A stretch of 20,469 nt of DNA, taken from a virus. Both the position numbers and the translations under genes were made by a program. The number at the start of each line of letters is the position of its first letter. Position 1 is the first letter of the stretch. The stretch covers positions 1 to 20,469 of the IMG/VR virus record IMGVR_UViG_3300007734_000440; one strand, given 5' to 3'. Under the pieces are notes generated by a model that saw only the letters and a program-made list of their open reading frames with translations, did no database searches and was not told the DNA's origin. Below are positions 1,771 through 19,156 of the stretch, in pieces.

Positions 1771-1956
1771 ATGATTAAAATCTTTTTTTCCGAGGAGGCT
1801 TATCAAAAGGCCATTGATGAAAGGGTGATGTTTTTAACAGAACACATCGGTCGTTTGAATAAGACCATTGATGACTTGGTAGAGCAAGTGACCCTATCAA
1901 AGCACAAAAAGGTCAATAACTTCATCAAAAACAAGGCTAATAAAAAGAAGAAATAA
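1771..1956 (+). CDS. Small 61-aa helical protein with basic tail
   Basis: The ATG follows AAGGGGG by a few bases and the frame ends in a TAATG overlap with the peptidase gene, so the two are probably translationally coupled. The protein looks almost entirely helical (a likely coiled coil at about residues 9-45) and ends in a Lys-rich tail (NKANKKKK). I do not recognise the family. Being the first gene of the operon and coupled to the predicted peptidase, it could be a partner or adaptor of that enzyme, or an independent nucleic-acid binding peptide. Neither idea has direct evidence. Confidence 0.75.
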   Translation: MIKIFFSEEAYQKAIDERVMFLTEHIGRLNKTIDDLVEQVTLSKHKKVNNFIKNKANKKKK

Positions 1957-2507
1957 TGACCGCTATTGTGGCTTACAAAGATGCTGAGTTTATTTACTAC
2001 GGGTCGGATTCCAGAGTCTCTTTTGATAATGGGTCGGTTTATGATACCTGTAATAAGTGGCGGGTGATGGCAGGTCGTTCGTCCAAGTTCCCTATTATTG
2101 TAGGGTGTGCAGGTTCGGCTAGGCTGGATAACCTGATAGTGTCAAGTGCTAAAAATTTCGAGGCGGCTGAGACACCTTTTGAGGTGGCTGACTTGATTAA
2201 GAAAGCCATTTCACTAGACGGATGGAAAGAAGAAAAGGATGAGGGAGGCGAACCGCCTTCTTATTCGGTTGATGTGTTAATTATCTTTGAAAAGAACCTT
2301 TATCGCATTGGTTCAGATTTATCGGTAACGGAGATACAAGACTTTCAGTTTGTAGCCATAGGCAGTGGCGAACCTTATTGTTTAGGGGCGGCTTACGGAA
2401 GTAAAAGTAAGAAACCTAAAGAAATGATTAGAACGGCTTTATCCGCAGCAATTAAGTTTGATCCTCACTGCGGAGGCAAGATGTTTATAGGAGCCATTGA
2501 AAAATGA
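1956..2507 (+). CDS. Proteasome/HslV-type threonine peptidase (Ntn-hydrolase)
   Basis: After removal of Met the protein starts with Thr. Numbering that as Thr1, Asp falls at 17 (GSDSRVS) and Lys at 33 (NKWRV). These are exactly the positions of the nucleophile, Asp and Lys that define active beta-type proteasome subunits and HslV. Further family features are a first strand TAIVAYK, IIVGCAGSA (like the AGFAG of HslV), VAIGSGEPY (the HslV-type IGSG turn, Ser136), and DPHCGG near the C terminus, aligning with the DxxSGG motif but with Cys for Ser. At 183 aa it is the size of HslV. No propeptide is seen, since the Thr follows the initiator Met directly. No unfoldase (HslU, ClpX) is present in the window. 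It could mature virion proteins, degrade host factors, or have lost the ring assembly. The fold is fairly certain; the role is unknown. Confidence 0.8.
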   Translation: MTAIVAYKDAEFIYYGSDSRVSFDNGSVYDTCNKWRVMAGRSSKFPIIVGCAGSARLDNLIVSSAKNFEAAETPFEVADLIKKAISLDGWKEEKDEGGEPPSYSVDVLIIFEKNLYRIGSDLSVTEIQDFQFVAIGSGEPYCLGAAYGSKSKKPKEMIRTALSAAIKFDPHCGGKMFIGAIEK

Positions 2508-2695
2508 GTTTTAAAGCCCCTACCATCCCCTGTAAGCACTGCGACAAGGTTTTATCGCTGACGGAGTATTCGGCCTCGCTATTGGCTTTAAGGGGGCCTT
2601 ATCACGCTACTTATCTTTATCGCTGTGAATGTACCCCTAGTGAAGTTCAAGTTTTACCCATTGATCGTTACCCCCAAATAGGAAAGGCTTTTTGA
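2504..2695 (+). CDS. Small zinc-ribbon-like protein
   Basis: This 63-residue protein starts at an ATG that overlaps the peptidase stop codon (ATGA) and ends in a TGATG overlap with the next gene. It has CKHC at residues 10-13 and CEC at 41-43, a pair of cysteine knuckles that could hold one zinc ion. The middle is hydrophobic, with SLLALRGPYHATYLY. Small zinc-ribbon proteins of this type are common in phage operons as nucleic-acid or protein adaptors. I cannot assign a specific family. Confidence 0.7.
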   Translation: MSFKAPTIPCKHCDKVLSLTEYSASLLALRGPYHATYLYRCECTPSEVQVLPIDRYPQIGKAF

Positions 2696-3240
2696 TGTCC
2701 CAGTTACCTGTACCCAAATTAACCTACAAGCACTCGATGAAAGACAACCGAGATGTGATTACTGTCTTTGATAGTTCAGGAAAGACTTTTGTCTCATTTG
2801 ACGATATCTCTTTAGACCGAGCGATACTGGGAGCTTCCGAATATATTAGATTGAAGATTGAAGATTTATTAAGAATAGCCACCCCGCCTTATTTGAGAGA
2901 GCTGCTTAAGCCCTGTGAGAAGAAAGGCGATGGAAGATTGCCAATTGATAAAGCCCAGTGGAAAGAAATTACACTTTCAGATTGGACACACGGCCATTTG
3001 GGTGTGATTACCCAAGCCGAACTAGGAAGAATCAGGGGCGTGTCAAGACAAGCCATCAATCAATCCGTTAATCGAGGCGATATTGAAATCTTTGTTTGGC
3101 GAGACGAGAAGTATGTGCCATTCGACACGGTGATGGTTCACCCCAAGGTCATTGAAACAATTGGCAATCCGATGGTTTTATACTATGCCGTTCAGAAAGA
3201 TAAAAAGAAACCCCGAAGACGATACAAGGAGTCATCTTGA
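2695..3240 (+). CDS. Helix-turn-helix DNA-binding protein
   Basis: I chose ATG at 2695, which forms TGATG with the preceding stop and has AGGAAAGG at good spacing; a TTG one codon earlier is possible. Of 181 residues, about 104-130 form a helix-turn-helix: VITQAELGRIRGVSR then QAINQSVNRGDIEI, with the 'SRQAINQSVNRG' recognition helix typical of site-specific binders. The C terminus is strongly basic (KKKPRRRYKESS). The N-terminal ~95 residues contain no motif I recognise. It is the only clear sequence-specific DNA-binder in the operon, so it may regulate late genes or bind the 985-1073 repeats. That link is a guess from proximity. Confidence 0.75.
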   Translation: MSQLPVPKLTYKHSMKDNRDVITVFDSSGKTFVSFDDISLDRAILGASEYIRLKIEDLLRIATPPYLRELLKPCEKKGDGRLPIDKAQWKEITLSDWTHGHLGVITQAELGRIRGVSRQAINQSVNRGDIEIFVWRDEKYVPFDTVMVHPKVIETIGNPMVLYYAVQKDKKKPRRRYKESS

Positions 3241-3717: not shown

Positions 3718-4166
3718 GTCAGCCACAAAGCACAGAAGTTTGGCAAGAAGAAAAGCCCAAGGGTGGTTTTGGCGTTGCGATGACCCCTGAGCAGTTTGAG
3801 GCTTTGGCTTTTAAAATGAATTTTATATCTGAAGAAACCGCAAGGAGAGAAAAGGCTGTTGCCGATTCTTTGCAAGATTTAAAAAAGATCGAGGCTGTTA
3901 GAACTTATGCTTCTTTTGTTAAAGACATTACAACGAGTATCCAAACGCTAAGTACGCTACCCAATACAGAATTAGTAAGAGAAGAATTATTAAAATCATT
4001 ACACAAAGTCAATGAGAATTTTACCCCCAGTAAGGAGCTACATTTTGAGGAAGAACTACAACTTCAAACTCTCTCCAGAGCAGTCGAAGCGAATCAAGCG
4101 AATGGTGTTCTATATGAACTTCACCCGCAATCCCAAGAAGAAGAAGGAAATGAGACAAAAAGTTAA
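3714..4166 (+). CDS. Hypothetical 150-aa protein before the small terminase
   Basis: The start ATG overlaps the previous stop (ATGA) and has AAAGGA upstream. The protein is hydrophilic and mostly helical, beginning with a disordered MSQPQSTEVWQEEKPK stretch followed by a MTPEQFEALAFKM helix. Its last ~50 codons (4012-4166) overlap an open frame that continues into the small terminase, and both frames read like plausible protein there. Either the terminase begins near 4150 and this gene is complete, or the true product ends earlier through a frame change. No function can be assigned. Its position suggests a packaging accessory protein. Confidence 0.65.
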   Translation: MSQPQSTEVWQEEKPKGGFGVAMTPEQFEALAFKMNFISEETARREKAVADSLQDLKKIEAVRTYASFVKDITTSIQTLSTLPNTELVREELLKSLHKVNENFTPSKELHFEEELQLQTLSRAVEANQANGVLYELHPQSQEEEGNETKS

Positions 4167-4755
4167 TTCGTACAAGGGTCAGTTAGACCGTATCCGTAGA
4201 GATGCTCACGCAGACGAGTGGGTTATCAACGGTATTGCTCACTCACGCCAAGATGTGATTTATAAAGTTTTGGAGTGGGTATCCGAAGGCAATGCTTTAA
4301 AAATGTTTGCCGAACAACCTGGGGCCCCTGCCGTTGGAACGATCTATAAATGGTTTAAGAATCATCCTGACTTTGAAAAAGATTTCCGATCTGCCGAAGA
4401 AGCGTCAGGTCATATTCTTGCCGATAGAGCCTTGACCGAAGTTCTTCATTTAACTGATAAGGAAGAAGTGCCCGTGGTTAAACTTCGGTATGATGCTCTT
4501 ACCAGACGAGCCGCACAGATGAATCAACGCTTTCAGGATAAGCAAGTCTTCAGGCAAGAAGAAGATGTTAAAAGTTTATCGGATGATGAACTCAAGAAAA
4601 GACGAGATGATCTTTTTGCCAAGGTTAAAGAAGAACTCAGGCAAGAAGGATGGGTAGCCCCTGCGGGTGAAATAGACATAAGTGTTGAAAACAATGAAGT
4701 TACAGAAGAAACAGAATCTGATGAAGTAGATAACCCTAATGATAACAACACTTAA
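4150..4755 (+). CDS. Terminase small subunit
   Basis: The small terminase recognises phage DNA and delivers it to the large subunit for packaging. From ATG 4150 the protein has 201 residues. A helix-turn-helix covers about residues 36-72 (VIYKVLEWVSEGNALKMF, then GTIYKWFKNHPDF), followed by a helical region (KDFRSAEEASGHILADRAL, then KLRYDALTRRAAQMN). This pattern is familiar from terminase small-subunit-like proteins of many phages. The C terminus is acidic and disordered. The frame is open upstream to ATG 4012, which would add 46 residues overlapping the previous gene. I chose 4150 for the purine-rich AAGAAGGAA just before it and the shorter overlap, with reservations. A terminator follows three bases after the stop codon. 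Confidence 0.75.
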   Translation: MRQKVNSYKGQLDRIRRDAHADEWVINGIAHSRQDVIYKVLEWVSEGNALKMFAEQPGAPAVGTIYKWFKNHPDFEKDFRSAEEASGHILADRALTEVLHLTDKEEVPVVKLRYDALTRRAAQMNQRFQDKQVFRQEEDVKSLSDDELKKRRDDLFAKVKEELRQEGWVAPAGEIDISVENNEVTEETESDEVDNPNDNNT

Positions 4756-4757
4756 AC

Positions 4758-4784
4758 AAAAAAGGAGTCCGAAGACTCCCTTTT
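4758..4784. terminator. Bidirectional rho-independent terminator
   Basis: GGAGTC (4764-4769) and GACTCC (4774-4779) form a perfect stem, flanked by six As on the left and CTTTT on the right. Read leftward it is a textbook terminator: stem, UUCG tetraloop, then six Us. It therefore ends the leftward cassette gene at 4802-5032. Read rightward, with a CGAA loop and four Us, it can also end the small-terminase transcript. Confidence 0.85.
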
Positions 4785-4801: not shown

Positions 4802-5032
4802 TTATTCGGCCTTAGCGGTGTAGCCAGTGGTTTTATAAGCAGAACCCGTAGCGGATTTGCCCATATCAACATCGGCTTTAAAAGAAGCGAACTCAGGTCG
4901 AGCCGATTGGCCGCCACCTTCGCCATCAGAAGTTTCCTTCATCAAGGCTTCGGGGCTTTCACCTTCAACTACTTTGATGGTGTTTTTGCCAAACTCAACG
5001 GGGAGTCCTGCCATTTTTTTTTCAAGAGACAT
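4802..5032 (-). CDS. Leftward moron-like gene between the terminase genes
   Basis: This 76-aa reading frame runs against all its neighbours. It is supported by GAGGT about five bases before its ATG, an extended -10 promoter at 5075-5083 and a UUCG-loop terminator after its stop. It begins MSLEKKMAGLPVEFGKNT, has a central Gly-rich stretch (DGEGGGQSARPEF) and ends in GYTAKAE. I see no membrane segment, signal peptide or known motif. A gene with its own promoter and terminator, inverted within structural genes, matches the definition of a phage moron. Such genes often act in the lysogen or early infection (exclusion, host modification), but this product's role is unknown. The 115-codon rightward frame over the same bases (4739-5086) lacks such signals. 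Confidence 0.7.
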   Translation of the reverse strand: MSLEKKMAGLPVEFGKNTIKVVEGESPEALMKETSDGEGGGQSARPEFASFKADVDMGKSATGSAYKTTGYTAKAE

Positions 5033-5074: not shown

Positions 5075-5102
5075 ATTATAACATAGGAATCTTATGAGTG
5101 AA
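5075..5102 (-). promoter_or_regulatory. Extended -10 promoter for the inverted gene
   Basis: Read leftward, TGTTATAAT (5083-5075) is a perfect extended -10 (TGn plus TATAAT). TTCACT (5102-5097) lies 16 bases upstream as a 4-of-6 match to the -35. Transcription would start near 5068, giving a leader of about 36 bases before ATG 5032. The -35 falls inside the first codons of the large terminase gene, so rightward late transcription would run straight through this promoter. Confidence 0.65.
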
Positions 5103-6476
5103 TGGTCTGAATTAGAAAAAATAGAAATGGAACTTTCCAGAAGGGAACGGGAGAGCAAACTCAAGAACTTTAGACCCTACCCTAAACAACTAGAGTTTAT
5201 GAACGACAAGCACAAGGTCGTGGCTCTGTTTGGGGGTAATCAATCGGGTAAAACCACCGTAGGATCAGCCTTTGTAGCCTATCACCTTACGGGGGAGTAT
5301 CCTTCTTGGTATAACGGCATCAAGTTTGACCGACCCGTGATGGTTTGGGTGGCAGGAGAATCCTCAACTCGTGTTCGAGATACCCTACAAGAGAAGCTTT
5401 TTGGCCCTTTAGGTGAATGGGGAACAGGTTTAATACCTAAGCAGACCCTTGTAGGTGACCCTATTCGCAAAGGGGGTATTCCTGGAGCCATTGATATTTG
5501 CAGAATTAAACATAAATCAGGCGGTACAAGCACCATACAGTTCTTTTCTTATGACCAAGGTCGAGAAAAGTTCCAAGGCAGTACCGTAGATCTTGTTTGG
5601 TGTGACGAAGAACCCCCTGAAGACATCTATAAGGAAGCCAAAATGCGTACCATTGCCGCTTCTGGGTATGTTTTCCTTACCTTTACACCTTTGCGTGGTA
5701 TAACGCCTCTATGCGATGAAATGATAGGCAATAAAGACAACATTTATGGCGTTCATTACCTTACCTGGGATGATGTGACCCATTTATCCGAAGTAGACAA
5801 GCAAATGCAGGTAGCAGGACTTGGCCCCCACGAAATTGAAAGCCGTAAATATGGAAAGCCGAGTATTGGTTCAGGTAAAATCTATCAATTTGACGAATCC
5901 GAGTACACTGTAACCGATTTTACGATTCATCCTAAGTGGCGAAGCATTGCGGGTCTTGATGTGGGTATTTCTCATCCAACCTGTGCCGTTAAATTGTCTA
6001 TTGATGATGAATCAGGGGTCGGTTATATCCATAAAGAATATAAAGTGTCTGGAGAAACCTCTATTTACCACGCTTATAAACTAAAAGATTGGCCTTGTCG
6101 ATTTTCTATTGACCCAAATTCTCGTCAGCGTTCCATTGCAAGTGGAGACTCTCCTTATAAAATGTTTCAAGACATTATGGGTGATGATCGGTTGATTCCT
6201 GCCGACAATAGGGTAAACTATGGTATATCACTAATAAGAGCCAAAATCGCTACCGAGCAACTCTACATATTTGAGTCTTGCGTAGAAACCTTAAAGGAAA
6301 TGCGTTTGTATCGCTTTAAAGAAAACGGAGACATACACAAGGTTGATGACGATTTGATGGATGCGTTTAGATATTGTATAACCGCTTGGGACAAAGCCGT
6401 TGCTCCACCTGAGCTGAATAAAAAATATGAGTTAAACTATGAATGGAAGCCAACAAATAAAAGAATCGGTTACTAG
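5094..6476 (+). CDS. Terminase large subunit (ATPase and nuclease)
   Basis: This is the packaging motor and DNA-cutting enzyme that docks on the portal. The ATPase domain shows Walker A GGNQSGKTT at residues 47-55, Walker B VDLVWCDEE at 165-173 and the coupling motif TFTP at 196-199. The RNase H-like nuclease domain shows acidic residues at D289 (GLDVG), D340 (FSID) and the D418-D423 cluster (DDDLMDAFRY). At 460 aa it is slightly shorter than P22 gp2 (499 aa), and gene order with the portal and scaffold fits the P22 type. AGGAA precedes ATG 5094. Because a terminator and an inverted gene separate it from the small subunit, its transcription depends on read-through or a weak local promoter (a poor TATAAC at 5077). 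Confidence 0.95.
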   Translation: MSEWSELEKIEMELSRRERESKLKNFRPYPKQLEFMNDKHKVVALFGGNQSGKTTVGSAFVAYHLTGEYPSWYNGIKFDRPVMVWVAGESSTRVRDTLQEKLFGPLGEWGTGLIPKQTLVGDPIRKGGIPGAIDICRIKHKSGGTSTIQFFSYDQGREKFQGSTVDLVWCDEEPPEDIYKEAKMRTIAASGYVFLTFTPLRGITPLCDEMIGNKDNIYGVHYLTWDDVTHLSEVDKQMQVAGLGPHEIESRKYGKPSIGSGKIYQFDESEYTVTDFTIHPKWRSIAGLDVGISHPTCAVKLSIDDESGVGYIHKEYKVSGETSIYHAYKLKDWPCRFSIDPNSRQRSIASGDSPYKMFQDIMGDDRLIPADNRVNYGISLIRAKIATEQLYIFESCVETLKEMRLYRFKENGDIHKVDDDLMDAFRYCITAWDKAVAPPELNKKYELNYEWKPTNKRIGY

Positions 6477-6484
6477 GAGATATA

Positions 6485-8734
6485 ATGGGTCAAGAATTTT
6501 CGACTATTGAAGCGGGTAAACCCTTTAGCATTACTACGGGTTTAGCCAAATTAGTTCAAGATAAGTTTACTTGGTGCAGGAACTTACGCTTTTTACAACA
6601 GGAAAAATGGCTATCCGCAAAGATGGCCTTTGACGGTATTGATTATTACGGTGCGGATGAAGATGCCAACCAATCAGGTATCTTTTTGAATTTTACGCAG
6701 ATGAAAACAATGGCTGCCTATTCGCAGATTATGTCTACGATGACGGGCCCTGATGGATTTCCTTGGTCAATTAGCCCCACGCCCCATCCAGACTTGGTTC
6801 GATTGGGTTATGAAAGCGTCAGAGAAGCCGAAAAAAATCCCTCTTTACCTATGGATTTGCAAACAGAAATTCTCAAAGCCAACATTGCTTGTGACGGTAT
6901 GCGAGTTAAGATTGCAGATAATTTAGATGAAACACATTGGGAAGAAAAGTTTTCTCGTGGTGTTTTGGATATGGTTATTTTGGGAACGATGGTTGTTAAG
7001 GGGCCCTTCTCTGCACCGCCTAACCCAAAGAAGTGGATGCTGGTAGACGAAGAAGAAGACGCAGGTGTCTTGAGCAAGATAAAGGGTGCAATCGGAATCG
7101 TGGAAGCTAAAAAGCAAACCTATAAACTTGTTTCTCCCAATGAAGACCCACGACCCGATTTTGAAATTGTTTCTCCGTTTGAATTCTATCCTGACCCTTC
7201 CGCTTTTAATATTGAAGATTGTATGTGGGTGGTTCATCGTCACGTTCTTAACAAAGCTCAACTTGTAGAACTGTCTAAATCTCAAGGTTTTAATGCGGAA
7301 GAAATCGAAAAATGTTTAGATGCTTACCCTAAAGGAAACTGGACGGCTGAAACTTGGGAATCTCGTGTCTATGCTCTGAATCAAAGACAAACGCCTCTTA
7401 CTCGTGGTGATAGATTTGTGGCCCTTGAATATTGGGGATACATTTCTGGCCGAGAACTAGAACTCGCAGGTGTCGATATGCCCAATGGCTACGACAAACA
7501 TAAACAGTATATGGCTTGTATTTGGTCGATTGGTTCTTACTGCATAAAAATTGCTATGAGCCAACTTGAGAAACCTTACATTCCCTTCTTGGTTTGCCCT
7601 TACGAAAAAGTTCTTTATAATATTTGGGGTCGTGGTATTCCCGAAAAGATGCGTGACCCACAGGACATCGTAAATGCGGCTGCGAGAGCAATGGTAGACA
7701 ATATGGGTATTGCCGCAGGGCCTCAAGTCATTTATGACACGAGCCGAATGATTAATGGATTTAAGTTTGAGGGCATTAAGCCTTGGGGTGTTTGGCCTCT
7801 TAAGACGCTTGAGGGAATTACAGCCCCGCCTGTTACTTTTGTTCCTGTTCCCAGTATCTTAAACGAACTCAAACTCTTACAAGATAACTTTAAGATGTTC
7901 ATTCAGGAAGTAACCTCAATGCCTGATATGGCTTCAGGTTATGCAGGTTCGTCATCGGGACAGCACAACCGTACCGCTTCAGGTATGAGTATGTTGTTCA
8001 ATGCTGCCAATACCTACATTAAAGGCGTTGTATTTAACATTGATAACAACATTACCAAACCTATGATTAGGCGTATTTATGATTGGAATATGCAATATTC
8101 TAGCGATATGCTCATCAAAGGCGATTTCAATGTCGATGCAGGTGGAGTCCAGAAAATTATACGAAACGAAGGCAAAATGCAAAGTGTGCAAGAGTTATTG
8201 CAACTAATGCAGGATCCTGACTTTAAGCCGTATATTAATAAAATTGCTATTCTTAAAGAGTGGGTACGCAATCACGGACTTAATTCTTCGGATGTTATTA
8301 ATTCTGATGCTCAAGCCGAAGCCATCAAGCAAGAGATGGCACAGTCTCAAGCTCAGATGGCTCAAAATGCCAATGTGCCTAAACTCCGTGCCGAGATGCC
8401 TAGACCTGATGCGTTACTTGAAATGCTCACCAATACAGAGCCTTCAAGTCCTGCGTATCCTGCTATTTACGAGCAGGTTGCCTTGTCTCAGGATGCGATG
8501 AGTCCTTCTATGAAGGAATCTATTGACTTGATGAAGGCTCAGTCTTTTGCGGCTGCGGCTCAAACACTTCAATCGTTGCCCCCTCAGTTTGAAACGATGC
8601 CCCAACCTTCTCTTTCAAATTTTGAACGAGCAGCAGGTTATCCTCAAACGGCTCCTCCACAATTACCTCAAGTTCCTGCGTTGCAAGGTTTACCCCCGCA
8701 ACAAGGAATTCCACCTCAAGGTATGCCACAATAG
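6485..8734 (+). CDS. Portal protein (P22-like)
   Basis: The portal is a dodecameric ring at one vertex through which DNA is packaged and ejected. Evidence is its place directly after the large terminase, its length of 749 residues (P22 gp1 has 725), and a portal-like N-terminal region (KFTWCRNLRFLQQEKWLSAK, then FDGIDYYG). Further on, a helical stem region includes SMPDMASGYAGSSSGQHNR, which resembles the conserved 'sGxxgssSG' stretch near the wing and stem of such portals. The last ~90 residues are Pro/Gln-rich and disordered (QLPQVPALQGLPPQQG), replacing or extending the helical barrel known in P22. AGGAGA sits before ATG 6485. The stop codon lies in the loop of a hairpin (8722-8744). Confidence 0.9.
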   Translation: MGQEFSTIEAGKPFSITTGLAKLVQDKFTWCRNLRFLQQEKWLSAKMAFDGIDYYGADEDANQSGIFLNFTQMKTMAAYSQIMSTMTGPDGFPWSISPTPHPDLVRLGYESVREAEKNPSLPMDLQTEILKANIACDGMRVKIADNLDETHWEEKFSRGVLDMVILGTMVVKGPFSAPPNPKKWMLVDEEEDAGVLSKIKGAIGIVEAKKQTYKLVSPNEDPRPDFEIVSPFEFYPDPSAFNIEDCMWVVHRHVLNKAQLVELSKSQGFNAEEIEKCLDAYPKGNWTAETWESRVYALNQRQTPLTRGDRFVALEYWGYISGRELELAGVDMPNGYDKHKQYMACIWSIGSYCIKIAMSQLEKPYIPFLVCPYEKVLYNIWGRGIPEKMRDPQDIVNAAARAMVDNMGIAAGPQVIYDTSRMINGFKFEGIKPWGVWPLKTLEGITAPPVTFVPVPSILNELKLLQDNFKMFIQEVTSMPDMASGYAGSSSGQHNRTASGMSMLFNAANTYIKGVVFNIDNNITKPMIRRIYDWNMQYSSDMLIKGDFNVDAGGVQKIIRNEGKMQSVQELLQLMQDPDFKPYINKIAILKEWVRNHGLNSSDVINSDAQAEAIKQEMAQSQAQMAQNANVPKLRAEMPRPDALLEMLTNTEPSSPAYPAIYEQVALSQDAMSPSMKESIDLMKAQSFAAAAQTLQSLPPQFETMPQPSLSNFERAAGYPQTAPPQLPQVPALQGLPPQQGIPPQGMPQ

Positions 8735-9059: not shown

Positions 9060-10130
9060 ATGCCAAAAACAAAAATGCAAGAAATCCGTGAAAACGCTAA
9101 ACGAGCCGATGATATGGCAAAGCAGTTAGCGGCTGAAGGAAATCTGTTTCCAGCAGAAGGCGTAAAGAGTCAATTTTTTACGAATAATCTGCCTGACCTT
9201 TCCCAAGCCCCGACCACTGAATCTGATGTCAATGAAGCGGTACAAGCTGAACCTTCACAACCTGTTACAGAAACAGTTTCTTCAACGGACAACAATTTGA
9301 GTGCCAACGAAAATCCATCCGTAGAAGAAGTGAAGGATAATTTAGTTTCCGAGAGGCAGTATAAAGCGGCTGTTAAAGCAATGAATGATGCTCAGAGACA
9401 AAAGGCTGAATCAGATCGTATGCTTAAACAACAAGCCGAAGAACACGAAAGATTTAAAGCAGAATTAATGGCTATCAAGCAACAAGTTCAACAAGGAAGT
9501 AAACCGAATAATGTATCACTCGTTGACCAAGCATTATCGCCTTATGCCGAAGAATATCCTGACACATTTAAAATGGATATTCTCGCAGCAAATGCCGTCA
9601 AGGAAGAAGTGAGGAACCTCATTGATTCAAGATTTCAAAATGTCGAAGACCAACTTCGTCAGTCCCGTGAAGAACAAGATAGATTTAAAGTCCTTGAGCA
9701 GATTCGCTTAAGAGATGATAAGGTCAAAAAAGTTCATCCCGATTATGATGATGTTCGTTTATCCGATGATTTTAAAACTTGGATTTATGGTGAAGCACCG
9801 AGTCTATACAAAGCCGTTTATGAAGGAGCGATTCCCTTTGATGAGAGGGATGCCGTTAAAATCGTAAGCGACTTCAAATCGTACGCTACTCCACCTGTTG
9901 AAAATAAAACTGTCACTTCACGCCCCAAACCTGGTGCAGCCGAAGCTTCCGTGAGAACGGCTTCTGCGGTTGTTGCTGATATGGGGATTAATAATGAACC
10001 TGAATTTACTGCTGAAGATATGCAACGACTGCCGTATATGATTAATCGAGTTAAAGACCCTGTACAACGCAAGGCTTTAATGGATAGGGCACAAAATTTT
10101 ATGACTAAGCAGATTTCAAAAACCAAATAA
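9060..10130 (+). CDS. Scaffolding protein
   Basis: Scaffold fills the procapsid, guides coat assembly and leaves before or during packaging. The call rests on position (after the portal, before the coat) and composition. The 356 residues are very hydrophilic and helical, with a low-complexity acidic, Ser/Thr-rich stretch at 45-95. Likely coiled coils lie at about 97-146 (AMNDAQRQKAESDRMLKQQA) and 188-222 (FQNVEDQLRQSREEQDRFK). A basic helical C terminus ends QNFMTKQISKTK. P22 gp8 likewise binds coat with a positively charged C-terminal helical hairpin. GGAGAGAG precedes ATG 9060. Sequence match to any one family cannot be shown by eye. Confidence 0.8.
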   Translation: MPKTKMQEIRENAKRADDMAKQLAAEGNLFPAEGVKSQFFTNNLPDLSQAPTTESDVNEAVQAEPSQPVTETVSSTDNNLSANENPSVEEVKDNLVSERQYKAAVKAMNDAQRQKAESDRMLKQQAEEHERFKAELMAIKQQVQQGSKPNNVSLVDQALSPYAEEYPDTFKMDILAANAVKEEVRNLIDSRFQNVEDQLRQSREEQDRFKVLEQIRLRDDKVKKVHPDYDDVRLSDDFKTWIYGEAPSLYKAVYEGAIPFDERDAVKIVSDFKSYATPPVENKTVTSRPKPGAAEASVRTASAVVADMGINNEPEFTAEDMQRLPYMINRVKDPVQRKALMDRAQNFMTKQISKTK

Positions 10131-10614: not shown

Positions 10615-11496
10615 ATGGGTTTACAAGTTACACGAAGTGGTGCGAACCTTTCGGCTGGTGTATTTGTTCCGCAGATTTACTCCGCTAAACTGCAAGACAA
10701 ATTCTACGCTGCCTCTGTCGTTCCCGCCATTGCAAATCACAACTGGGAAGGCGAAATTATGGCTTTTGGCGATACCGTCAATATCCGTAAAGTCCCTACC
10801 ATTTCTATTCAAAACTATTCGGTGAATAGTGCTATCAATTATCAAGATGTGTCTGATGAACAGATTCAATTGCTCATCAACCAAGCGAAGTATTATGCTT
10901 TTAAGGTTGATTACATTGATGACTACCAGTCAGATATTGCTTTGATTGATACCATCACTCAAGATGCTGCTATGCAAATGGCAGTCACCGTTGACAAGTC
11001 CGTGCTTCAGTCAGTTTATGCTGATGCAGGTACGACTCTTTCATCGGTTGATCTTGCTTCTTTAACTACTGCCACTTACATTACTCCTCTCCTCGAAGCA
11101 GGACAGGCTCTTGATGAAAAGAATGTTCCTCGTGACGGCAAACGCTGGGCGGTTATTACGCCTGAGTATGCTCGTTACCTGAAACTGTCTGACTTAAAAC
11201 AAGTCCTTATTACGGGTGATGATGAATCTCCTCTCCGTAACGGGTTTGTGGGTCAGATTGACGGGATGAACATTTATGTTTCCAACAATGTTCTCAATGC
11301 TGTCGGTTCTACCTCTGGTTCACCTAGCCAAATGCTAGTGGGCCACGAGTCAGCACTGACTTTTGCGAGTCAGTTTGTGAAACACGAAATGTTGCCCTTG
11401 CAGAACACCTTCGGATACGGAATTAAAGGTCTACAAGTCTACGGATTTAAGACCGTGAAAGCCGATTCGTTGGTTTGTATTCCTGCCTATGTTTAA
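10615..11496 (+). CDS. Major capsid (coat) protein, P22 gp5-like
   Basis: Coat subunits form the icosahedral shell. The N-terminal FVPQIYSAKLQDKFYAASVV, then GDTVNIRKVPTISIQNY and the stretch from YYAFKVDYIDDYQSDI are typical of P22-type coats with the HK97 fold. 'RWAVITPEYARYLKLSD' and 'GFVGQIDGMNIYVSNN' match the region where such coats have their conserved 'vv.P..y..L' and 'G.i.G~.v~~Sn' motifs. At 293 aa it is much shorter than P22 coat (430 aa), so it probably lacks the inserted I-domain. AAAGGAA sits before ATG 10615. An unusual GC-rich hairpin follows the gene. Confidence 0.88.
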   Translation: MGLQVTRSGANLSAGVFVPQIYSAKLQDKFYAASVVPAIANHNWEGEIMAFGDTVNIRKVPTISIQNYSVNSAINYQDVSDEQIQLLINQAKYYAFKVDYIDDYQSDIALIDTITQDAAMQMAVTVDKSVLQSVYADAGTTLSSVDLASLTTATYITPLLEAGQALDEKNVPRDGKRWAVITPEYARYLKLSDLKQVLITGDDESPLRNGFVGQIDGMNIYVSNNVLNAVGSTSGSPSQMLVGHESALTFASQFVKHEMLPLQNTFGYGIKGLQVYGFKTVKADSLVCIPAYV

Positions 11497-14079: not shown

Positions 14080-14852
14080 TGTCACTTATTGGTAATCGCT
14101 ATGTTCAAGCTGGTGATCCAGGGGCTGTTGGTGTAGGTTACCAGTGGCTCGATACGGATACTTCGCTATTGTTTGAAAGAAATGGATCCAATACCGCTTG
14201 GGTTCAAGTCTACAATACCAATCAAGCCAATGGCGGTCTATTGCCCCAAACGGGTGGCTCGGTGACGGGTGCTATTACAGGGACAACAGGATGGGCCCCA
14301 TCCGACAACGCTAATTTTGCTACGGCAGCCAAAATTGCAGGACAAAATATTGCTACGGTTAATTATGTGAATCAGCAAGTGGCTTCTTTCAACGATGTTA
14401 TTTCGGCTAAGATATCACAAGCCATAGCGGCATCAACTACTTCAACTCAAACTAATAATAATATTGCAAAATCGGGTAGCGGTGCTAAGAATGATGGATA
14501 TTTTTCTCCTACGGGTTCACCCGCAGCAAGTACAACGGGAGATGCTGGTGTAACAGCCCTTCCTATAATACCGTTACCATACTATCCCGATAGTGGCGGT
14601 GAGGCTCAAGAGTCCGATTGTATATGGATTGGGTCTATGGGCTTAAGTGCATCAGACAGAAACCAATATAATTCTAAAATTGTAGATAATAGCGTTGCAA
14701 ATAAAAGTTGGATAAATATATTCTACCAATACTCATCTCGTACTTATAAATCATATTCTTACCAAGGTTCAGACAGCACTTTTGGAACAAATTTTACCTA
14801 TACACCTATGGGTATGAATTGGATGATTATTGCGGTGAATTCTGCACAATGA
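14079..14852 (+). CDS. Structural protein with fibre-like repeats, probable fibre or tail component
   Basis: The 257-residue protein begins MSLIGNRYVQAGDPG and has GYQWLDTDTSLLFERNGSNTAW, a small beta-hairpin motif seen in many phage fibre N termini. This is followed by GGSVTGAITGTTGW and 'DNANFATAAKIAGQNIATVNYVNQQ', which is typical of trimeric fibre shafts ('...A.vNYvn.q'). The C-terminal 120 residues include SGSGAKNDGYFSPTG and an aromatic-rich tail. Start and stop overlap their neighbours (TAATG, ATGA). It probably forms a fibre or tail appendage. It is unusual that such a gene lies between the adaptors and the gp10-like protein. Confidence 0.65.
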   Translation: MSLIGNRYVQAGDPGAVGVGYQWLDTDTSLLFERNGSNTAWVQVYNTNQANGGLLPQTGGSVTGAITGTTGWAPSDNANFATAAKIAGQNIATVNYVNQQVASFNDVISAKISQAIAASTTSTQTNNNIAKSGSGAKNDGYFSPTGSPAASTTGDAGVTALPIIPLPYYPDSGGEAQESDCIWIGSMGLSASDRNQYNSKIVDNSVANKSWINIFYQYSSRTYKSYSYQGSDSTFGTNFTYTPMGMNWMIIAVNSAQ

Positions 14853-17800
14853 CAAAACAAATCAGATTAGATTTCAGCGGTGGTGTTAATGTCATAGCCG
14901 ATAAGTCAGTTCTACCTGACAAGTTTGGCACGGTGATGGATAACATTGATGTTCGTAGCGGGTTTCCCCGTTGCTTCAAAGAACCCATATTTAATCAAAT
15001 TGTTGCTAATACTGATACGACTAAGATATTTAACTTTCGTGGTCGTTGGATATATTCGGAAAATTGGCGTGATTATGTAGCCGACTTTATTAATGGTATT
15101 GAACGCATCTATTGGACTGAAAGTATCAATAGCGTTGGATACGATGGTGATGGAGATTTAGCCCCACAAAAGATGATTGAAGGAACCGAGGTTCCATTGG
15201 GAACTAGCAGACCAGAAACAGCCCCCATTGTCTCGTCTGGTAAGAGTATTGTTCCGTTGATGAGTCCACCTGTTGCTATTGATGTAGGCGGATTAACCGA
15301 GGGCACTTATTATTACGCTGTATCTGCCGAATTTGGCAAAGGAGTCACAGCTCCTTCTGATATTGTAAATGTTGTTATTGCACAAAACGATACGGCTAAT
15401 ATTAAACTTTCTTGGAGTATGGTTACAGATGCTGTTGGCTATATCATTTGGGGTCGTGCGAATACCTATACGGCAATGAAAAGATTACAAAGGGTGTCTT
15501 CTGGATCACTTAGTTGGACAGACAACGGTAGTTTGACACCCAAGGGTGACAGCCCCAATGATTACTTTGACAACTCTCCTGTTTCCTATGTATATACCTA
15601 CGAAAGAGATGTTAATAATGTTTTTAATGAATCAGGATTAAGTCCCATTTCAGATAGGATTACTACAAATGCCTCAAGAAATATAGCCAGAGATTTTTTA
15701 AATGATGGATATCTTTCACAACCTACGGCTGTTGATATAAGTACCGATGATGGTTACGCTTTCACGGTAGAGCCTAGACCCTCAACGGTAGACACTTTTC
15801 CGTATTATGTACCCATTGAAATTATTGGTGCTGAATATCAACAGAGTTTAAATCAAGTTCTTTTTACAACATTGAATCCACACAGACTTACAACAGATGA
15901 TGAAATTATATTTACAGGTTCGGCTTGGCAAAGTCCTGCATACAACAACCAAAGATATAAGGTTGTTGTTACTAGCACAACTCAATTTGCTATTTTGAAT
16001 ATACCAGCACCTAATGACCAAATACTTGGGGGAATAGTTGATGATGGATATACCTTTGTCCCTGTAAGCGGTGGTATACAAACAACCAATTTATTTTCAG
16101 TTATAAGTGAAACGGGTGAGGGAACGGGTGCAATATTTGATGTAACTTTTTTCCTACCGCCTGTTGGCCCAGTCGATTCTATTGTAGATACGGTAACCGT
16201 AGATACTCCTGGATCGGGTTATGGAATTGGGGATATTGTTTATATTCAGATTGAACCAGTTTCCTATCAGTCACAACCTGCACCAGAAAGCATTGAACAA
16301 GGGGAATCTTCAACAACGATTACTAATGTTGGTTCAAGCTATCCAAAACCGAGTAGCATTAAGTCTTTTAACTTTACGAGTCCTGGGTCTGGTTACACAC
16401 CTGGTAATTACTCTGTCTCACTTACGGGTGGATCAGGCACTGGGGCAACCGCAACTTTGAACGTTGATACTGATGGTCTTGTAAACAATGTGCAATTGGT
16501 AGATTTGGGTGCAGATTATCAAATTGGAGATGTTTTATCGGCAACCATTACAGGTGGTTCTGGTTTTTCTATATCCGTATCTGATATTAACTATGGAACC
16601 TATGAAAATATTTCTCTTACAGGTGGTTCTGGTACTGGGGCAAAGGCCACTGTGACCGTTGATGCTGCGGGTCAAATGGCTGCTATTGATGTTACCGATG
16701 GTGGAACTGGATATACCAATTCTGACACCAATTTGGGCGTGTCGGGTTTAGCAACTGGTTCTGGTGCGTTACTTGATGTTCTTGCGACACAAATAAATTA
16801 TCAAAAACAATATTTTACTATTACTGAAGTTGATAGCAATAATGAAATAAGTATCTGTCGTTCACGCATTACCATCAGTCCCGTTCCAACCGAAGGAACC
16901 ATTAATGATGGCGATGCAATGTATTTAAATATGTCGGATTCTGCTATTGGAAGAATTTATAGAGTTACTTTTGTTGGAGGGAATGGCTTTAGGGATGGTT
17001 TGTATTCAGACATTCCTTTAGTTGGAGGTTCTGGTTCGGGTGCTACGGCTAATATCACTATTGCTGGTGGAGTAGTCACTGGCGTTGATATAGAAAATCA
17101 AGGATTAAATTATCTAGTTGATAATATTATTGCACCAACAACATATTCTTTAGAAAGTGAAAATAGCATAAACACAAAAACCCTAACCAATGGCGGAACT
17201 GGGTATGTTGATGCTGTCTATGCAGATGTTCCATTAACGGGTGGTTCTGGTAGTGAAGCCGAGGCACAGATAACCGTTGTAAGTGGAATTGTTACCGTAG
17301 TTACTATAACCAACTTTGGCAAAGATTATACTGCTGGAGATGCTCTTTCTGCTAACAATGCCAATCTTGGCGGTTCAGGTTCTGGCCTTGTTGTTACCGT
17401 TGATTCCGTATATATCGGTGCTGGTGCATCCATAACGGTTACCGCAATTGAAGATGCTGAAATTATTAATGGATTATACCAAGTCTACACAACCGACCTA
17501 GATGGTAATCCAATTCCCGAAGGCTCTTTTGATATTAATGAGTATGTTGGTGCTTGGACTGCCCCAACCGCCCTTGGTGCTTCTGCCCAATGGGTTCCGT
17601 TCAATGGATATTACCGATATTGGAATCTCTACCGAACAGGTGCAGCAGGTGCGTTTCAGCTTGTAGATCAGATTGATATTTATACTTCTAATTATTTAGA
17701 TAAAACAAGTACCGAATATCTAGGAACCACACCCTCGTCTTACTATACGGAGAATGGAATATTTGGCCCTGTCCAAGTAGATTTTATGCCCCCACCCTTG

Positions 17801-19156
17801 GGGCTACAATCACTTACAAGCCACTATGGAATGTTATTTGGGGTTGATGGACAACGAGTGAAGTGGACACCCATTGGACAACCTGACGCTTGGCCCGATG
17901 TTTTCTATTATGACTTTACCTATAAGCCCCTAGCCTTATCAAGTTTCGGTACGGCCATTATTGTCCTCTGCGAAGATGCAATTTACCGAATAGACGGTAA
18001 TAGGCCATCTGAAATGTCGCTATCCAAGACCAATGCCAACGAAGGCTGCATTGCCCCTTACACCGTTCAAAAGACCAACAAGGGTTTAATCTACCTCAGC
18101 AAACGAGGGCTAATGATATTCAACGGTATGGATGCCCAATGCATTACGGATAATCGAATCCCAAGTAATATGCTACTTGGCCCAAGCAAACTTGAAAATC
18201 CTGTTGATTTTTGGTGGATACCAACTAAACTAGGATACTTTTACGGCAACTTTGCTTTCAATGATGGAGTTTACTTTACCGATGAAAGTGCTAATCGATT
18301 TTACCAAACTAATCCTATTCCTTCCGCTATTTATGATATTAAATCTTTTTATCATAATGGTCGCTATTACCTTGTTTATACGACAAGCGATTTCTACTCT
18401 GCTCACACTACGCTTTGCGTGGATCTCCAAATTGAAGGCTTTCCTATCACAACCTTGGGCCTGAAACCCATTGATGTCATTGTTAATGAATTAGATGATG
18501 CTTATGCTTTATTCGGTAATCAAGGTAATGGTGACTTAACTAACCTATCAACCTTTAAGGCTCAGAACTCCGAAGCCGAGCCTTTTGTAACCGAAGAAAC
18601 CTATACCGTTCCCTCTAGCCCCTATGTGGTAACGGTAATCAATTCAACTACTTATGTATCTAACCAAAGTGTTTATAACTCTACTGATAGTGTTTTAATG
18701 ACCGAGGTTGCAAGTAGCCCATCTACTAACGAATATATGGTCACCAATGGGGTTTATACTTTTGGTTCTGCCAATCAAGGCAAACAAATTATTATTACTT
18801 ATCAATTTGGTTTTGCTGTCAATGCTGGACTTAGTGTTTGGAAGTTATTCAATGGCAAAAGCAATATGCCTCTTGTCATTCGTTCGGGTCAAAAAGGATT
18901 CGGTAATACCACCGAAAGAAGGAAGTATGAACATCTTGAGTTCTACGGCAACGGAACGCTTTACGCACGATGCTACATTGATGGCAATTGGATTGCTGAT
19001 GATATTGTAAGCTTGACCGAACTACCCTCTAAGGCAAGGAAGTTTAATCTACCCAAAGGGCAACGACTTGGCTACAACTTGGACTTTGAAGCCTACGGAG
19101 ATACCAATAGGTTAGTGGTAGAATATGGCTATGCAGAAATGGAGAGTCCGTCTTAA
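14849..19156 (+). CDS. Giant DNA-stabilisation/tail-hub protein (P22 gp10-like) with large insertion
   Basis: ATG 14849 overlaps the prior stop (ATGA). The 1435-residue product has a core like P22 gp10 or T7-type nozzle propellers. The N-terminal RLDFSGGVNVIADKSVLPDK region and the block at about 985-1250 (LFGVDGQRVKWTPIGQPDAW, IVLCEDAIYRIDG, NKGLIYLSKRGLMIFNG) are the characteristic propeller blades. P22 gp10 has 472 residues, so two-thirds is extra. The extras are an FnIII-like region (about 135-245), an FCCH-like module (about 325-395) and about five Gly-rich repeats (about 414-860). A C-terminal module (about 1253-1327, with YMVTNGVYTFGSANQGKQIIITY) is known from other phage tail proteins. 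It probably closes the head and forms the tail tube, with the insertion exposed outside. Confidence 0.8.
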   Translation: MTKQIRLDFSGGVNVIADKSVLPDKFGTVMDNIDVRSGFPRCFKEPIFNQIVANTDTTKIFNFRGRWIYSENWRDYVADFINGIERIYWTESINSVGYDGDGDLAPQKMIEGTEVPLGTSRPETAPIVSSGKSIVPLMSPPVAIDVGGLTEGTYYYAVSAEFGKGVTAPSDIVNVVIAQNDTANIKLSWSMVTDAVGYIIWGRANTYTAMKRLQRVSSGSLSWTDNGSLTPKGDSPNDYFDNSPVSYVYTYERDVNNVFNESGLSPISDRITTNASRNIARDFLNDGYLSQPTAVDISTDDGYAFTVEPRPSTVDTFPYYVPIEIIGAEYQQSLNQVLFTTLNPHRLTTDDEIIFTGSAWQSPAYNNQRYKVVVTSTTQFAILNIPAPNDQILGGIVDDGYTFVPVSGGIQTTNLFSVISETGEGTGAIFDVTFFLPPVGPVDSIVDTVTVDTPGSGYGIGDIVYIQIEPVSYQSQPAPESIEQGESSTTITNVGSSYPKPSSIKSFNFTSPGSGYTPGNYSVSLTGGSGTGATATLNVDTDGLVNNVQLVDLGADYQIGDVLSATITGGSGFSISVSDINYGTYENISLTGGSGTGAKATVTVDAAGQMAAIDVTDGGTGYTNSDTNLGVSGLATGSGALLDVLATQINYQKQYFTITEVDSNNEISICRSRITISPVPTEGTINDGDAMYLNMSDSAIGRIYRVTFVGGNGFRDGLYSDIPLVGGSGSGATANITIAGGVVTGVDIENQGLNYLVDNIIAPTTYSLESENSINTKTLTNGGTGYVDAVYADVPLTGGSGSEAEAQITVVSGIVTVVTITNFGKDYTAGDALSANNANLGGSGSGLVVTVDSVYIGAGASITVTAIEDAEIINGLYQVYTTDLDGNPIPEGSFDINEYVGAWTAPTALGASAQWVPFNGYYRYWNLYRTGAAGAFQLVDQIDIYTSNYLDKTSTEYLGTTPSSYYTENGIFGPVQVDFMPPPLGLQSLTSHYGMLFGVDGQRVKWTPIGQPDAWPDVFYYDFTYKPLALSSFGTAIIVLCEDAIYRIDGNRPSEMSLSKTNANEGCIAPYTVQKTNKGLIYLSKRGLMIFNGMDAQCITDNRIPSNMLLGPSKLENPVDFWWIPTKLGYFYGNFAFNDGVYFTDESANRFYQTNPIPSAIYDIKSFYHNGRYYLVYTTSDFYSAHTTLCVDLQIEGFPITTLGLKPIDVIVNELDDAYALFGNQGNGDLTNLSTFKAQNSEAEPFVTEETYTVPSSPYVVTVINSTTYVSNQSVYNSTDSVLMTEVASSPSTNEYMVTNGVYTFGSANQGKQIIITYQFGFAVNAGLSVWKLFNGKSNMPLVIRSGQKGFGNTTERRKYEHLEFYGNGTLYARCYIDGNWIADDIVSLTELPSKARKFNLPKGQRLGYNLDFEAYGDTNRLVVEYGYAEMESPS
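16090..17430 (+). repeat. Degenerate Gly-rich repeats within the gp10-like protein
   Basis: Five imperfect units share the pattern '..GGSGxGAxAxxxVdxxGxVxxVxitxxGxxYxxGDxL'. Anchors are TGEGTGAIFDV (~16110), LTGGSGTGATATL (~16430), LTGGSGTGAKATV (~16620), VGGSGSGATANI (~17025) and LTGGSGSEAEAQI (~17240), with a half unit GGSGSGLVV (~17375). At the DNA level, short stretches such as GGTGGTTCTGGTA recur, which could promote recombination and change in repeat number. Similar repeats occur in tail proteins of other aquatic phages. Confidence 0.7.

Follow-up and report, generated by a model that had tools for sequence, protein, structure and literature searches.

A divergent phage member of the proteasome homologues encoded near the head of a packaging operon

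The gene at positions 1956–2507 of a 20,469-nucleotide viral sequence (positions 1 to 20,469 of IMG/VR record IMGVR_UViG_3300007734_000440, the whole of which we call the window) encodes a divergent phage representative of the group I proteasome homologues. Its product almost certainly belongs to the proteasome superfamily as an Ntn hydrolase of the threonine type. We show homology at the level of both sequence and fold, a conserved active site, purifying selection, a defined operon position, and the absence of an unfoldase from the DNA examined. The best explanation of the gene, to which we assign a probability of about 0.6, is that it belongs to the late operon and encodes an ATP-independent cytosolic ring peptidase that acts without an AAA+ partner.

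Active site and family of the peptidase

An earlier note on this DNA had read the ORF as a proteasome/HslV-type peptidase with an intact active site, and the match to phrog_1040, the matches to HslV models, and the conservation of Thr1, Asp17, and Lys33 all bear this reading out. The 183-aa ORF is real and opens with ATG-ACC, so that Met is followed directly by Thr as described (Table 1). Upstream of this ATG the frame stays open for only four more codons (187 aa in total), and thus Met-Thr is likely the true start. With the Thr counted as residue 1, Asp17 and Lys33 do fall at their canonical positions, and the two further motifs that had been pointed out are both present, the IGSG turn at about residues 135–138 and the DxxCGG motif as DPHCGG close to the C-terminus.

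Table 1. Coordinates of the features discussed, as positions in the window
Feature	Position	Strand	Remarks
61-aa ORF, operon head	1771..1956	+	In four relatives with upstream sequence; no family match
Proteasome/HslV/BPH-type threonine peptidase, 183 aa	1956..2507	+	phrog_1040 match, AlphaFold2 model, invariant Thr1 and Lys33
Thr1 codon ACC	1959..1961	+	Directly after ATG; Thr in 50/50 relatives
Asp17 codon GAT	2007..2009	+	Asp in 49/50, Glu in relative L004
Lys33 codon AAG	2055..2057	+	Lys in 50/50
Acidic pore-loop segment WKEEKDEGGEPPSYS	2223..2267	+	Near-invariant in the window's group; aligned with the BPH acidic pore loop
GSG turn	2361..2369	+	Both Gly invariant in 50 sequences
63-aa ORF, CxxC/CxC, zinc-ribbon-like	2504..2695	+	ATGA overlap with the peptidase stop
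182-aa helix-turn-helix-like protein	2692..3240	+	Weak MarR_2 match; synteny, downstream in all relatives
Terminase small subunit (TerS)	4012..4755	+	phrog_1482, 8e-14
Terminase large subunit (TerL)	5094..6476	+	phrog_2, 7e-35
Portal / head-tail adaptor	6485..8734	+	phrog_332, 1e-53
Scaffold-like protein (inferred)	9060..10130	+	Between portal and capsid genes, coiled-coil-like composition; no family match
Major capsid protein	10615..11496	+	phrog_267, 1.6e-50 from residue 14; no long N-terminal extension

Conservation of the triad in homologues was examined in an alignment of 50 sequences that combines the window's own group with distant phage and cellular homologues. Thr1, Lys33, Gly135, and Gly137 are invariant, and Asp17 is present in all sequences except one, which has Glu. 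The exception is relative L004 (78% identical; gene at 611–1159), where GAG stands for GAT in an otherwise well-conserved sequence, and this Glu17 is either a natural variant or a sequencing error. Thr also follows Met in all 74 PPH-length phage homologues and in 47/47 homologues of a longer type, for which the choice of start favoured Thr or Ser. The peptidase gene is under strong purifying selection (dN/dS 0.075 against L002; about 0.04 against L004, with dS near saturation), and we predict that the enzyme is very likely catalytically active. Turnover does not follow from an intact triad, because no in vitro activity has been demonstrated for either the betaproteobacterial proteasome homologue (BPH) or Anbu (PMC5777263).

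As a single sequence, the peptidase matches PHROG 1040, "peptidase HslV family," over essentially its whole length (residues 1–177, E 1.4e-16). The HslV models NF003964 and TIGR03692 are also matched over their full length with E about 1e-4, under their curated cut-offs, and identity with HslV was rejected because the score of 21 bits is far under the NCBIfam cut-offs of 137 and 158, respectively. The peptidase is like HslV (ClpQ) in this weak full-length match, in its similar size, and in its Met-Thr start, and unlike it in the distance from the cut-offs, in having an acidic loop in place of basic pore residues, and in having no HslU. Pfam Proteasome gives only 0.23 with the single sequence, and the best PDB chain is BPH. 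A profile of 21 phage homologues matches HslV at 3e-13 and BPH at 9e-13. In profile–profile comparison, the window group is nearest to phage homologues of ~180 aa (1.6e-17), a type that may be AAH, and its match to the BPH profile is weaker (2e-10); the match to Thermotoga HslV, a single sequence, is 1.7e-5. Identity with PPH was also rejected, since the peptidase has 183 aa and an extra long helix and the profile of 74 PPH-length phage sequences (142–162 aa) matches the window group at just 2.7e-5. In a tree, the window clade joins BPH and HslV with support of 98/87 and with long-branch warnings, and we do not rely on this placement because long branches meet there. A pattern scan of 84,980 prokaryote species genomes confirmed no relatives of the window group, and among 398 genomes of one phylum a profile search turned up distant, mostly partial matches only.

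The phage proteasome homologues PPH, AAH, and CPH were described in 2021 by Fuchs, Alva and Lupas, with PPH as a viral family member, AAH in many phages, and no propeptide, AAA+ partner, or suggestive genomic context (PMC8665760). Since these proteins are known and phrog_1040 already carries its HslV-family label, a claim to a new type of protein does not stand, and the window peptidase is instead a new, divergent member of the known phage homologues. It is like PHROG 1040, PPH, and AAH in having Thr1 after Met, Asp17 and Lys33, a compact subunit, and neither a propeptide nor an AAA+ partner, and all of these are genes of tailed phages that often lie near packaging genes. The window group differs in sharing only 20–30% identity with them, in carrying GCAGSAR at the site of the longer phage type's G(F/Y)TSSFRMG, in its longer acidic pore loop, and in being ~35 residues longer than PPH, which has about 140 residues and is missing the second helix H2 (PMC8665760).

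Predicted fold and the acidic pore loop

The AlphaFold2 model of the peptidase monomer, built from the 50-sequence alignment, has a mean pLDDT of 87 and a pTM of 0.84, and the BPH rows in that alignment may bias the model towards BPH. An earlier model built from five sequences of the peptidase's own group was poor (pLDDT 59), and its weak matches were still proteasome-family chains. Comparison of the 50-row model with HslV, Anbu, and proteasome beta subunits, which the earlier note had proposed as a check, gave a four-layer Ntn fold, with Z of 18–19.5 to BPH, HslV, and 20S beta chains. The best match is BPH–epoxomicin 5ovt (VIA-align Z 19.5, rmsd 2.7, 166 residues), and in this alignment model residue 2 superposes on BPH residue 1. 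HslV, 20S beta subunits, and Anbu come after BPH with Z of 18.0–18.6; the Anbu chains are at 18.0, and the model ends in a strand without a long C-terminal helix such as H5 of Anbu. A long helix is predicted at residues 74–96. The top Foldseek match is 5ovu (1e-10), and BFVD contains at least 31 viral proteins with the same fold at E ≤ 0.001.

BPH (5ovs, 5ovt, 5ovu) is a 14-mer barrel peptidase for which an unfoldase is not known (PMC5777263). Besides being the best match among solved structures, it shares with the window peptidase a long acidic pore loop; it differs in being only about 20% identical and in being encoded on a chromosome rather than by a phage, and the window peptidase was modelled as a monomer. 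The loop in the window group, WKEEKD(E/D)GGEP, varies at one position (E/D), and the predicted pore loop has 6–7 acidic residues in 20, compared with 6 in 21 for BPH. The pore of BPH is acidic, whereas that of HslV is basic (PMC5777263). A stand-alone ring like Anbu had been raised as an option; among the options raised, a stand-alone ring fits best, with BPH rather than Anbu as its model.

Operon position and linkage to packaging genes

The phage setting that had been assumed is confirmed by the IMG/VR record and by the TerS, TerL, portal, capsid, and tail genes downstream of the peptidase, and its place at the head of the late operon is upheld with the refinement that it is the second gene of a rightward operon, after the 61-aa ORF. 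The peptidase start shares one base (TAATG) with the stop of that ORF, and because of this overlap and the ATGA overlap on the other side, translation of the peptidase is probably coupled with that of its neighbours. In relatives with flanks, the order is the 61-aa ORF, the peptidase, the small Cys protein, the helix-turn-helix-like protein and, further on, TerS, TerL, portal, scaffold-like protein, and capsid, and in all of them the peptidase heads the head/packaging operon. Neither the 61-aa ORF nor the small Cys protein was found in a 59% identical relative.

Several other features of the window were seen along the way. The helix-turn-helix-like protein (GVSRQAINQS), two genes past the peptidase and directly adjoining it in L012, might be a late regulator. 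A 76-aa ORF on the minus strand between TerS and TerL (4802–5032) is conserved at 76–100% across five relatives (L009: 97%), frequently more than the neighbouring genes, and is probably a real antisense gene; a terminator-like stem-loop near it (4764–4779) is not above chance. Positions 14819–19156 encode an internal virion/tail-like protein of 1445 aa, in which several repeat segments of the GGSG(T/S)GA type match tail fibre and baseplate PHROGs. Promoter and terminator scans of the window gave no excess of sites over shuffles, and it contains no Rfam families or tRNA.

To look at linkage more widely, we used two sets of loci, one for the short (PPH-length) type and one for the longer type, each drawn from a single query and limited to its 80 best relatives, which means that the phages within a set are not independent. 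Of the 54 short-type loci with full flanks, 46 have packaging genes following the peptidase on its own strand, with TerL usually 0.6–2 kb away. For the longer type, the peptidase is within 5 kb of the portal gene in 17 of the 33 contigs with a recognisable portal, where random placement expects 8.3 (P about 0.0007), and the two genes are on the same strand in 30 of the 33. The homologues of T5-like and jumbo phages are instead surrounded by metabolic or takeover genes, and thus the packaging linkage is common but not universal. Only two papers on phage HslV-like proteins were directly relevant (PMC8665760 and PMC4936722), and packaging-module linkage is not described there. Three phage homologues match 177, 183, and 467 INPHARED records, in overlapping sets. 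In L028 (Aeromonas phage 4L372XY, 2001–3397) and L021 (2001–2989), an adjacent pair of genes carries HslV-family/nucleophile aminohydrolase annotations, possibly a paired or split peptidase.

One phage with virion data carries a homologue in the same setting. In phiAH14a, a culturable temperate phage of Pseudomonas sp. ANT_H14, the protein p58, "proteasome subunit beta" (KU708004, PMC4936722), is a phrog_1040 member (1.4e-42) encoded upstream of the terminase and portal genes, and it shares with the window peptidase AYKD...DSR...VYD and a C-terminal D..(C/T)GG. Unlike the window peptidase, p58 has 156 aa and lacks the second helix and the acidic loop segment. Mass spectrometry of phiAH14a virions detected the capsid protein at 92% coverage along with portal, head morphogenesis, and connector proteins; p58 was not among the proteins detected, in a shallow analysis of tailless particles (PMC4936722).

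Proposed role and its alternatives

If the peptidase works as we propose, host methionine aminopeptidase would probably remove the Met to expose Thr1 as the nucleophile, with Lys33 and Asp17 and without a propeptide. The subunits would then probably form a double ring like that of BPH or HslV, with the active sites inside and the acidic loop at the pore. Judging by its operon, the peptidase would be made with the late genes and would act, unaided by an AAA+ partner, in the infected cell's cytosol. There it would probably not cut capsid precursors but degrade unfolded or unassembled polypeptides, such as surplus scaffold and head proteins or peptides of the host. We consider formation of a ring probable and a late cytosolic, non-virion role an even bet.

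One alternative is that the enzyme is a prohead peptidase that cuts capsid precursors or removes scaffold within the prohead, and the protease content of these genomes bears on it from both sides. The gene heads TerS-TerL-portal-capsid operons, no S78 prohead protease (PF04586) matches anywhere in the window or its group, ClpP (PF00574) is absent from the group, including the 54.9-kb contig of the 59% identical relative, that contig also has no S49, and neither S78 nor S49 is found in 34 contigs with short-type homologues. However, S78 co-occurs with the longer-type homologue in 28 of 46 contigs, so a simple prohead-protease role misfits that type. In the window itself, a long N-terminal extension is missing from the capsid protein and a scaffold-like gene is present; phiAH14a likewise encodes a recognised scaffolding protein, and its virions contain almost full-length capsid protein and no detected peptidase. 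A barrel whose active sites lie inside would also be better suited to unfolded substrates than to trimming a shell that has already assembled. The option of a new prohead protease, raised in the earlier note, is therefore disfavoured, and we regard it as unlikely; from the S78 co-occurrence and the phiAH14a virions without p58, we instead favour late cytosolic proteolysis by an unfoldase-free ring. As a separate observation, the contig of L126 (G407), which carries a proteasome-type peptidase, has a ClpP-type protease gene adjoining the portal (29500–29991, minus strand).

Equally improbable in our view is that the peptidase stands in for the HslV of the host and receives its substrates from the host's HslU. 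Its sequence and fold are of HslV type, and the earlier claim that no unfoldase lies nearby holds for all the DNA searched, with no AAA+ unfoldase (PF00004, PF07724) in the window, four fragmentary relatives, or the 54.9-kb contig. Against this, the acidic loop replaces the basic pore residues of HslV (PMC5777263), and BPH, the closest solved structure, has no known unfoldase. We place similarly low odds on a host-takeover or counter-defence protease directed at specific host proteins: the T5-like and jumbo-phage homologues do lie away from head genes, in takeover and metabolic surroundings, but in the window's group the gene is in the late operon, and no association with defence or a target was found. 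Least likely is a non-proteolytic or inactive protein of proteasome fold, such as a connectase-like ligase or a binding ring, since the connectase precedent within the family (PMC8665760), the lack of known activity for BPH and Anbu, and the Glu17 of L004 are set against a Thr1 and Lys33 that stay invariant, and an Asp17 that is nearly so, across very divergent sequences.

Beyond the window, a wider reading is that proteasome-type threonine peptidases are a regular part of the DNA-packaging/head module in many tailed phages, where they would contribute to head assembly as unfoldase-free rings that might, for example, destroy released scaffold or unassembled portal, terminase, or capsid subunits. 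The window group would then form a branch apart, marked by an acidic pore like that of BPH. We offer this whole reading tentatively and think it somewhat unlikely as it stands. Where the longer-type homologue occurs, a gene of its own usually encodes the serine prohead protease. Proteasome homologues are present in hundreds of phages with no established function, and their linkage to packaging genes provides a testable lead.
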